Source of the DNA: Clostridia bacterium | GTDB lineage: Bacteria > Bacillota > Clostridia > Oscillospirales > CAG-382 | Assembly (NCBI GenBank): GCA_017381715.1 | Contig: JAFOBR010000067.1 | Span: 1-55,533 of the forward strand | Direction: 5' to 3' | Length of the DNA: 55,533 nucleotides | Shown: positions 30,973 to 33,379 of the stretch, piece after piece | Position numbering within the stretch: the first letter of the stretch is position 1 | Layout: every line of letters starts with the position of its first letter | Notes under the pieces: model-generated | What the model was told of the DNA's origin: nothing | Seen by the model: the letters and a program-made list of their open reading frames with translations, nothing else | Database searches by the model: none | Made by a program: the position numbers and the translations under genes

Positions 30973-30998
30973 AAGGGACTCTTTACATAGAGTCCCTT
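30973..30998 (+). terminator. hairpin after ABC gene, terminator-like
   Basis: AAGGGACTCT (30973-30982) pairs with AGAGTCCCTT (30989-30998). The T-rich tract after it is interrupted (GACATTTATTTT), and the right arm merges into the -35 of the next promoter. Confidence 0.65.
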
Positions 30999-31025
30999 GA
31001 CATTTATTTTGCATAGATATATAAT
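30997..31025 (+). promoter_or_regulatory. sigma-A promoter of the HAD-CARF-luxS operon
   Basis: TTGACA (30997-31002), a 17-base spacer, and TATAAT (31020-31025), a perfect consensus. The -35 overlaps the end of the preceding hairpin. The first codon follows 20 bases later. Confidence 0.85.
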
Positions 31026-31045: not shown

Positions 31046-31804
31046 ATGAAATATAAGACAATAATTACAGATCTTGACAGAACTTTGCTTCGTACGGACA
31101 AAAGCATATCTGAGCGTACTCTGGCAGTAATGGGCAGATGTAAAGAAGAAGGTATTTTGTTGGTTGCTGCTACGGCAAGACCTTTCAGAAGTGTTGTTGA
31201 ATATAATAATCTTATCGGTTTTGATGCCTTGGTGTGCCTTAACGGTGCATACATTGCTTATAAGGATAAGATTATTGAGCGCTGCATTGACAAATCGGAA
31301 GGTGAAGAATTTTTGAGTAAGCTTTGTTCTGAATCTTCTCCCGTAATTTCTGTTGAATGCGGCGGTGTTTTGTATGCAAACACTGTGTTCGAGGAATGGG
31401 AATCCGTTTACTGGGATAAATTTCCCGCTTTACCGGAAGGACCTATACACAAAATTTTGATTACTTACAGCGAAAATGAAGAAATGCTGGTAAAGCGTTA
31501 TCTGCCCAAATCTTTGTACTATACCGTTGCAAACGGTCAGCTTTTGCAGATAATGAGTAAAGATGCCGCGAAAATGAAAGGTATTTCCACTTTACTGGAA
31601 ACTGTCGGTATTTCTGTGTCTGATTCCGTTTATTTCGGTGATGATAATGACGATATTGAGCCTATCCTTCAATGCGGATTGGGTATTGCCGTTGCAAACG
31701 GTATAGACAGAGTAAAAGCGTGTGCCGATATTGTTACCGAATCCAATGATTACGATGGCGTGGCAATAATTCTGGAAAAGCTTCTTTTAGGTGATATAAA
31801 ATGA
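31046..31804 (+). CDS. HAD-superfamily (Cof-like, IIB) phosphatase
   Basis: A 252-residue hydrolase. Motif I is TDLDRTLL with D9 and D11, motif II is in AATARPF, and the Mg-binding motif is FGDDNDDIEPI. A C2-type cap lies between. Cof-like enzymes dephosphorylate sugar phosphates, nucleotides or flavin precursors; the true substrate cannot be read from sequence. Its end overlaps the next gene by four bases (ATGA), linking it to the CARF-DUF1887 protein. Confidence 0.85.
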   Translation: MKYKTIITDLDRTLLRTDKSISERTLAVMGRCKEEGILLVAATARPFRSVVEYNNLIGFDALVCLNGAYIAYKDKIIERCIDKSEGEEFLSKLCSESSPVISVECGGVLYANTVFEEWESVYWDKFPALPEGPIHKILITYSENEEMLVKRYLPKSLYYTVANGQLLQIMSKDAAKMKGISTLLETVGISVSDSVYFGDDNDDIEPILQCGLGIAVANGIDRVKACADIVTESNDYDGVAIILEKLLLGDIK

Positions 31805-32898
31805 CATTTATCGAATTTTTTGATAAAACATGTGTGGAGAATATTTGTGCTTGCCTTTCTGCGATACCTGAACGGGTTATATTTTTTGGGGATAAGAAAA
31901 AAGAGCTTGAGGCCCACGCAACCCGTTATGAAAAGCTGTTTGCGGAAAGGGGACTAACTGTTGATTTTATCTGCAAAAGCGTAAACAGAAATAACCTTAA
32001 AAGCATTGTTGCCTTGCTTTCCGATATAGTGGAAAAATATGGCGATTGCGCTTTTGGTCTTACGGGCGGCGACGGTCTTTTCCTCACTGCCGCAGGCATT
32101 GTTTACGAGCGGTATAAGGATAAAAAGCTACAGCTTCACAGATATAATATTCATAACAACAAAATATACGATTGCGATAACGACGGTAACGTGCTTTCTG
32201 TAAATGAAAATTCCCGTCTTTCCGTTAAAGAAAACGTGCGTATCTACGGCGGTGATGTTATTGAGGGAAAAAGCTTTGAAGCAGAGAATGTATCTGATAT
32301 TCTCGGTGTCTGGGATATTTGCAGAAAAAACGTAAAGGCGTGGAATTCCGCTGTGAATAACCTTAAAACGGACAGCGGTATTTGCAAAGAACTTGTAAAA
32401 AGAGAACTTATCTCCTTCGACGGCGAAAAGATACTTTATAAAAACGAAACGGTAAAACACTGTCTTTCCAAAGCGGGAATGGCGCTGGAGATGATCGTCT
32501 TTCTTGCGGCAAAGCAGGCTGTTGATACTCAAGGCAATTTTGTTTACAACGACTGTATGAATGGCGTTTGCATTGATTGGGACGGGGCCGACGAAAAGTT
32601 CGATACAAAAAACGAAATTGACGTTATGCTTATGAGAGGAATGATGCCCATATTCATCTCTTGCAAAAACGGCGCTGTTGAAACGGAAGAGCTGTATAAG
32701 CTCAATTCCGTCGCCCAGAGATTCGGAGGTGCATATTCCAAAAAGGTTTTGTTCTCCAATGCTCTTTCGGGAAAAGGAGAGTTTTCAAAATATTTCAGGC
32801 AACGTGCAAAGGATATGGAGATAAGACTTATTGAAAATATTCAATATATGTCTTACGAAGAAATTAAAAATACGGTTAAAAACCTTTGGATAAGTTAA
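31801..32898 (+). CDS. orphan CARF-DUF1887 (Card1/Can2-like) nuclease-family protein
   Basis: A 365-residue protein. The N-terminal half (about 1-140) has a Rossmann-like CARF pattern with LTGGDGLF at 87-94, where CRISPR-linked relatives usually have a TGGTK-type ligand loop. After a linker the C-terminal half carries a PD-(D/E)xK-type core: E230, NEIDV with D274, and ISCK with K289. The usual Glu two residues before the lysine is Ser287. In the known Card1/Can2 proteins the CARF domain binds cyclic oligoadenylate and activates DNA/RNA cleavage. Here no cas gene or CRISPR array is in the window, and the protein is coupled to a HAD phosphatase and luxS, so its ligand and activity are open. Confidence 0.75.
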   Translation: MTFIEFFDKTCVENICACLSAIPERVIFFGDKKKELEAHATRYEKLFAERGLTVDFICKSVNRNNLKSIVALLSDIVEKYGDCAFGLTGGDGLFLTAAGIVYERYKDKKLQLHRYNIHNNKIYDCDNDGNVLSVNENSRLSVKENVRIYGGDVIEGKSFEAENVSDILGVWDICRKNVKAWNSAVNNLKTDSGICKELVKRELISFDGEKILYKNETVKHCLSKAGMALEMIVFLAAKQAVDTQGNFVYNDCMNGVCIDWDGADEKFDTKNEIDVMLMRGMMPIFISCKNGAVETEELYKLNSVAQRFGGAYSKKVLFSNALSGKGEFSKYFRQRAKDMEIRLIENIQYMSYEEIKNTVKNLWIS

Positions 32899-32908
32899 AG
32901 GAGTAATT

Positions 32909-33379
32909 ATGGAACGAATTGCAAGCTTTACAGTAGACCATCTTAACTTAATGCCGGGACTTTACGTTTCCCGCAGGGATAAAAGGGGAGATGTGGTTAT
33001 AACCACTTTCGATATGCGTATGACCGCACCTAACAGAGAACCGGTTATGGATATTCCCGCCCTTCATACTATCGAGCACCTTGGCGCTACTTATTTAAGA
33101 AATTCAAAATACAAAGAAGATATAGTTTATTTCGGACCCATGGGGTGCAGAACGGGTTGTTATATTCTCATGTTCGGCGATCTTACTTCCGAGGACATCG
33201 TTGATATGGTGCTGGATATGTGCGATTTTATTATTTCCTTTGAAGGTGATATCCCCGGTGCCGCTCCCGAACAATGCGGAAACTACAGTGAACAAAATCT
33301 TAATATGGCAAAATACTATATAAACAAGTATAAAAAACAGCTTTCGGAAAACAGATCTTTTGAGTACACTATGCTGTAA
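32909..33379 (+). CDS. luxS: S-ribosylhomocysteine lyase
   Basis: Cleaves S-ribosylhomocysteine to homocysteine and DPD, the AI-2 precursor. The metal ligands H53, H57 (HTIEH) and C123 (PEQCGNY), the catalytic C80 (GPMGCRTG) and E56 are all present. The length of 156 residues is typical. It has an AAAGGAG site and follows the CARF-DUF1887 gene by ten bases, so it is in the same transcript. Terminated by a strong hairpin. Confidence 0.97.
   Translation: MERIASFTVDHLNLMPGLYVSRRDKRGDVVITTFDMRMTAPNREPVMDIPALHTIEHLGATYLRNSKYKEDIVYFGPMGCRTGCYILMFGDLTSEDIVDMVLDMCDFIISFEGDIPGAAPEQCGNYSEQNLNMAKYYINKYKKQLSENRSFEYTML

Follow-up and report, generated by a model that had tools for sequence, protein, structure and literature searches.

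Our comparative analysis points to an intact, ligand-gated nuclease of the VC1899/Can2 type, probably homodimeric and working without CRISPR, as the product of the gene at positions 31801–32898 of the window, the whole 55.5 kb stretch of DNA from a gut-dwelling Clostridia bacterium that was analysed. The clade to which this protein belongs is often found in a non-CRISPR stress or defence module, of which the copy in the window would be a solo member; we give this reading, which draws on analogy with characterized family members, a probability of roughly one half. For the window protein itself we infer the dimer, the nuclease activity, the ligand gating and the biological role. CARF nucleases have so far been studied almost solely as outputs of type III CRISPR systems.

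The gene lies on the forward strand and encodes a protein of 365 aa which profiles and a structure model assign to the CARF–PD-(D/E)xK proteins of the CARF4/DUF1887 (VC1899–Can2) type. PADLOC CARF4--CARF_PDDEXK profiles match it with a best E-value of 5e-30, one of these models covering residues 4–352, and Pfam Card1_endonuc scores 26.1 bits, just below its gathering cut-off of 26.4. An AlphaFold2 model, computed from 14 window and locus sequences (mean pLDDT 87, pTM 0.85), was compared with known structures using Foldseek and VIA-align and matched VC1899 (1xmx) with a Z-score of 30.2 (rmsd 3.3, 339 residues aligned) and Can2 with cA4 (7bdv) with a Z-score of 28.5 (rmsd 3.5, 324 aligned). Both matches run along the whole chain, residues 1–365, and other CARF proteins rank next. 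Profiles and model indicate an N-terminal CARF Rossmann fold fused to a C-terminal PD-(D/E)xK nuclease. Because of the profile matches and the end-to-end structural matches, we regard the finding as real and the product, as modelled, as a complete CARF plus PD-(D/E)xK protein. The initial annotation had described a full-length CARF-DUF1887 (Card1/Can2-like) family member from the sequence alone, and both profile and structure comparison place the protein in that family. When solved structures were queried with this one sequence, only chance matches to sulfotransferases came up, and a clade profile was required instead.

The D...ExD...K nuclease motif is intact in the window protein (D259, E272, D274, K289) and near-invariant across 91 relatives. 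Its segments, all on the forward strand, are IDWDG with D259 (32572–32586), which is invariant or nearly so in the clade, NEID with E272 and D274 (32611–32622), the counterpart of the Can2 active-site pair Glu276/Asp278 (PMC7969007), and SCKNG with K289 (32659–32673). Since these catalytic residues are present, nuclease activity is predicted. The window genus is without about 45–50 residues between the CARF and nuclease domains (window 32340–32460, aa ~181–220), which are present in the relatives of ~415 aa.

The CARF pocket departs from that of the cA4-binding nucleases. The cA4 contacts common to Can1 and Can2 are Ser19, Thr42, Lys99 and Tyr118 (PMC7969007). At the first three sites the window protein has D8, D31 and G92, so that these contacts are not conserved; the counterpart of Tyr118 is R114 according to HMMER or D124 according to plain MAFFT, the two alignments disagreeing. 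By alignment, the TGGDG motif (aa 88–92; 32062–32076, forward strand) occupies the site of Can2 TGGTK, which holds Lys99. Of the 91 relatives, 84 have Asp or Glu at the Lys99 site and 82 at the Ser19 site. Acidic residues at the position chiefly responsible for phosphate binding suggest that the clade would bind its ligand in another way than Can2 binds cA4. A DxDxDG loop, DCDNDG in the window protein (aa 124–129; 32170–32187, forward strand), is common in the clade (DxDx[D/N]G in 74 of 91 members) and absent from Can2. This loop lies 3′ of the CARF core and could be a metal site.

One alternative is that the protein is a type III CRISPR effector which responds to a cyclic oligoadenylate made by a Cas10 which the draft assembly lacks or which only some strains carry. 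Here the most informative relative is encoded in genome G271 (L136:336–9432), where a clade member lies directly 3′ of Cas6-Cmr1-Cas10-Cmr3-Cmr4-Cmr5-Cmr6 and adjoins a CRISPR array of 13 copies; the type III-B locus is complete. The Cas10 of this locus carries a GGDD motif in its sequence, and the CARF protein that ends the operon is ~40% identical to clade members and has a similar acidic pocket (D8, N31, D92). Because the acidic pattern also occurs in this type III-B protein, an acidic pocket alone is no proof of a non-CRISPR ligand, and since one member sits in such a locus, the clade can still serve CRISPR. Moreover, a Lachnospiraceae contig (L065:75–11239) carries the type III-B genes Cmr4-6 ~8 kb from a group of VirD4/TraG-like genes, ClpP and CARF. 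The clade is thus not exclusively non-CRISPR, and its members have moved between CRISPR and non-CRISPR settings. The suggestion of the initial annotation that the protein may be a non-CRISPR effector agrees with a genome of origin that is free of detectable Cas10; it does not extend to the clade as a whole, which includes the G271 protein and the contig with Cmr4-6.

Against the CRISPR alternative stand the searches of the genome itself, a 95% complete draft of 1.80 Mb in 102 contigs. A check of the rest of the genome for Cas10 and other cyclic nucleotide synthases had been proposed together with the orphan status of the gene, and in this 95% complete draft we found no Cas10 palm, no Cas1 and no SMODS-type synthase; the orphan status thus held, and no type III system with a Cas10 was detected in the same genome. 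Cas10 was likewise found in none of the congeners G027, G028 and G029. All five genus genomes gave matches to mCpol (PF18182), which we discarded: the matching frame of the window genome is PhoH-like as judged by eye, and G028, which has no CARF gene, matches equally. The match in the window genome scored 22.8 bits, below the cut-off, and the mCpol cyclase of Panoptes systems was not encountered. Closer to the gene, the earlier statement that no cas gene or array is nearby was confirmed, as the 55.5 kb contain no CRISPR-like direct repeats and PADLOC detected no cas protein and no convincing defence match among the other window proteins. PADLOC matches elsewhere in the window (IetA, TRIP13, mad3/mad8, GlgB-like and similar) were judged to be generic cross-matches of housekeeping proteins, AAA and amylase proteins among them, and not defence.

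Co-occurrence across the order, assessed in a background of 297 genomes that are at least 85% complete, also speaks against a dependence on Cas10. The CARF clade is present in 34 of these 297 genomes and a Cas10 palm above the cut-off in 19, with an overlap of 3 genomes versus 2.2 expected (P 0.37). Full-length RyR-domain proteins, by contrast, occur in only 10 of the 297 and overlap with CARF in 6 versus 1.1 expected (P 2e-4). Among 50 other CARF-bearing genomes, full-length RyR was found in 25, compared with 10/297 in the background; the P value of 1e-16 is descriptive, because the sample consists of close relatives that are not phylogenetically matched to the background. Strong Cas10 matches were present in 2 of these 50 genomes versus 9/297, which is not significant. 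Across the order, the clade is found with Cas10 no more often than chance predicts but does co-occur with a rare module. With no Cas10 excess among CARF genomes, neither Cas10 nor Cas1 detected in the 95% complete genome of origin, and Can2 residues that contact cA4 not conserved, we consider a type III effector quite unlikely despite the G271 locus.

The genomic setting was analysed for the window and across the genus. A terminator-like stem-loop with a 10 bp stem (30973–30998) follows the ABC transporter gene, and a promoter-like TTGACA-17-TATAAT sequence (30997–31025), a perfect sigma-70 consensus (12/12), precedes HAD, CARF and luxS; both were located on the forward strand by consensus scan. 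The first gene encodes a HAD-IIB (Cof-type) phosphatase (31046–31804, forward strand; Pfam Hydrolase_3, 1.6e-44), and its stop codon overlaps the CARF start codon in an ATGA. The luxS gene (32909–33379, forward strand; Pfam LuxS, 1.4e-55) begins 10 nt downstream of CARF and has its own clear ribosome-binding site. The reported position of the CARF gene between a HAD phosphatase and luxS is therefore correct, and because all three genes come after the perfect promoter consensus, they are probably transcribed as one transcript, as judged from sequence.

This arrangement could be taken to indicate a housekeeping nuclease, ligand-independent or regulated by a metabolite and tied to HAD or LuxS, for example by sensing a product of the purine or methyl cycle. 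Such a role would fit the probable shared transcript and the translational coupling with HAD and luxS, the same gene order in G027, and the housekeeping-looking genes, such as ACT-domain, UPF0210 and Etf-like ones (names assigned by eye), that adjoin relatives in other genera. However, the gene has different neighbours in each of the other genera examined, and comparison of the five genus genomes, G000 (the window genome), G027, G028, G029 and G030, revealed that the junction itself is variable. The order HAD-CARF-luxS is found in G000 and G027. In G028, which has no CARF gene, luxS begins 54 nt after HAD with nothing between (L146). In G030, CARF directly follows the ABC gene, HAD is reduced to remnants, and the promoter sequence is kept upstream of CARF. 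In G029, the HAD/luxS gap holds ~10 kb of cargo that includes ClpP, VirD4 and CARF (L047:5584–16102). The VirD4-type gene is broken into two reading frames there, and genes for a 551-aa protein and a zinc-binding protein lie in the same gap; the downstream cargo resembles a metallophosphatase and an ADP-ribosylglycohydrolase, both named by eye. Because the content of the gap varies in G028, G029 and G030, the CARF gene is cargo inserted at a variable HAD/luxS site and no fixed member of a housekeeping operon. The description of the surroundings as a housekeeping operon applies insofar as CARF does lie in a HAD-CARF-luxS operon in the window; as a fixed part of that operon the gene fails, given the empty junction in G028, the large cargo in G029 and the lost HAD in G030. 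With HAD and luxS found without CARF in one genome and CARF without HAD in another, a housekeeping nuclease appears very unlikely.

The CARF gene is nevertheless under purifying selection, with dN/dS values of 0.09–0.17 for all genus pairs, lower than those of HAD in both comparisons that could be computed for both genes. These values, the intact catalytic motif and the retention of CARF in G030 despite the loss of HAD support a working gene.

Relatives outside the genus offer a different context for the nuclease. A scan of representative genomes yielded 316 relatives. We retained 80 loci, almost all of them from gut Clostridia and many of these from herbivores; no homologues were found in the plasmid, phage or viral contig collections searched for mobile carriage. 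A recurrent set of partner genes accompanies the nuclease. Of the 72 loci in which a CARF gene was called, 29 have a module gene directly next to it, on the same strand and no more than 300 nt away. A module member lies at most 9 kb away in 39 of 91 distinct loci, and in 27 of the 57 loci that extend for 4 kb or more to either side. According to Pfam, the module comprises an AAA_2 plus AAA plus peptidase M41 protein of ~1,160 aa, which is a Clp-FtsH fusion, membrane proteins, one of which matches TrkA_N weakly and below threshold, a RyR-domain protein of 95 aa (E 1e-35), YbjN-like proteins with a borderline score, and sometimes ClpP and an ATPase of the VirD4/TraG type. Sequence inspection adds two small proteins, one sigma-like and one zinc anti-sigma-like, to which Pfam assigns no family. 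In L073 (6551–10027), the ~1,160-aa fusion joins a Clp-type AAA ATPase and an FtsH-type AAA plus M41 protease in a single chain. The same locus (L073:2302–13122), as well as L051, L091, L057, L097 and L104, shows a YbjN-like pair, the CARF nuclease, TrkA_N-like membrane proteins, the Clp-FtsH fusion and RyR in a cluster. The L073 module consists of two YbjN genes, CARF, one TrkA_N-like protein, Clp-FtsH, a second membrane protein and RyR. A PrsW-like membrane protease gene, recognized by eye, lies beside or near CARF in L139 (6237–7160), L085, L095, L082 and L049, and fits the sigma/anti-sigma theme. This recurrent non-CRISPR association of the nuclease with RyR, TrkA_N-like, Clp-FtsH and YbjN proteins, which belongs to relatives and not to the window itself, appears to be new. 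We found no relevant paper among the open-access papers searched on CARF together with a RyR domain or with luxS; an earlier mention of RyR and CARF is possible in the subscription literature, including Makarova 2020.

In the window genome, G027 and G030, both RyR and the full Clp-FtsH fusion are absent, so that a module role is not directly applicable in the window genome; G029 has both, at loci other than the CARF gap. In a quick tree of the clade with SH-aLRT support, the window protein groups with G030 and G027 and then G029 (SH-aLRT 99), and module linkage is scattered widely in the clade that holds the window genus. Loss of the partners in the window lineage fits the tree and the distribution of the module, a fit that falls short of proof. 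The gene could accordingly be a relic, either of the module or of an earlier type III system, now without its triggering ligand, in line with the “cast adrift” reading for VC1899. The missing RyR and Clp-FtsH partners, the shared gap in G029 with its ClpP, 551-aa protein, frame-split VirD4 and zinc protein, and the poor activity of VC1899 (PMC7969007) are all consistent with such a remnant, which we still regard as unlikely, since purifying selection is genus-wide, the catalytic motif is intact and CARF outlasted HAD in G030.

For an intact nuclease working without CRISPR, the characterized Can2 protein suggests a possible mechanism. A small, probably nucleotide-derived ligand would bind the paired CARF domains (PMC7969007, PMC9704534), and binding across the CARF dimer would open a composite PD-(D/E)xK cleft. 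The opened site could then cut DNA and/or RNA and thereby slow growth or phage replication. Within gut Clostridia, nucleases of this clade would often act together with RyR, TrkA_N-like, Clp-FtsH, YbjN and small sigma/anti-sigma-like proteins as one module. The nuclease of the window species would stand alone in the HAD-luxS operon with apparently constitutive expression. As the gene appears to be transcribed constitutively, the protein should be inactive without its ligand, and since the nuclease stands alone and Cas10 and SMODS were undetected, the ligand would have to come from a source other than the tested cyclic-oligonucleotide synthases. We tentatively propose, as a somewhat less secure extension, that gut Clostridia possess a separate second-messenger stress or defence system in which a Card1-type CARF nuclease is combined with RyR, TrkA_N-like, Clp-FtsH, YbjN and sigma/anti-sigma-like proteins, and sometimes ClpP/VirD4, instead of Cas10, and that the window gene is a still-working solo descendant. 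A large Clostridial clade which is mostly without Cas10 and often beside one rare partner set provides a genetic handle on non-CRISPR CARF sensing. Furthermore, the type III-B member of G271 with its similar pocket offers a natural comparison of orphan and CRISPR-linked proteins.

Orphan CARF-DUF1887 members have already been described (VC1899, PMC7969007; PMC4012209), and the window protein is an orphan of this VC1899-like kind, having the DUF1887 fold and no linked or detected genome-encoded type III system. VC1899 of Vibrio cholerae (PDB 1XMX) is the solved orphan closest to it and showed only weak RNase activity that was not regulated by cA4 in vitro (PMC7969007), a point against our favoured reading. 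It is also the best full-length structural match of the window protein, likewise without a type III system and with an intact nuclease Glu/Asp pair. Both proteins have Asp at the Can2 Ser19 and Thr42 positions, Asp9 and Asp34 in VC1899 (PMC7969007) and D8 and D31 in the window protein. However, the two are only 17% identical, VC1899 has Arg at the Lys99 position where the window clade has Asp or Glu and the window protein Gly, and relatives in the window clade are linked to the RyR/Clp-FtsH module. With Can2 and Card1, ancillary nucleases of type III CRISPR systems, the window protein shares the CARF plus PD-(D/E)xK architecture and fold (Z 28.5 and 23.7) and the same catalytic motif, whereas no type III locus was found in the window genome and Ser19, Thr42, Lys99 and Tyr118 are not conserved. 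VC1899-family genes in Type-VII/Ter clusters (for example Daci_4198, PMC4012209) provide a further parallel, a CARF-nuclease gene inside a non-CRISPR cluster; there the companions are Type-VII secretion and Ter genes, while the partners of the clade described here are RyR, TrkA_N-like, Clp-FtsH, YbjN, sigma/anti-sigma-like and ClpP/VirD4 proteins.
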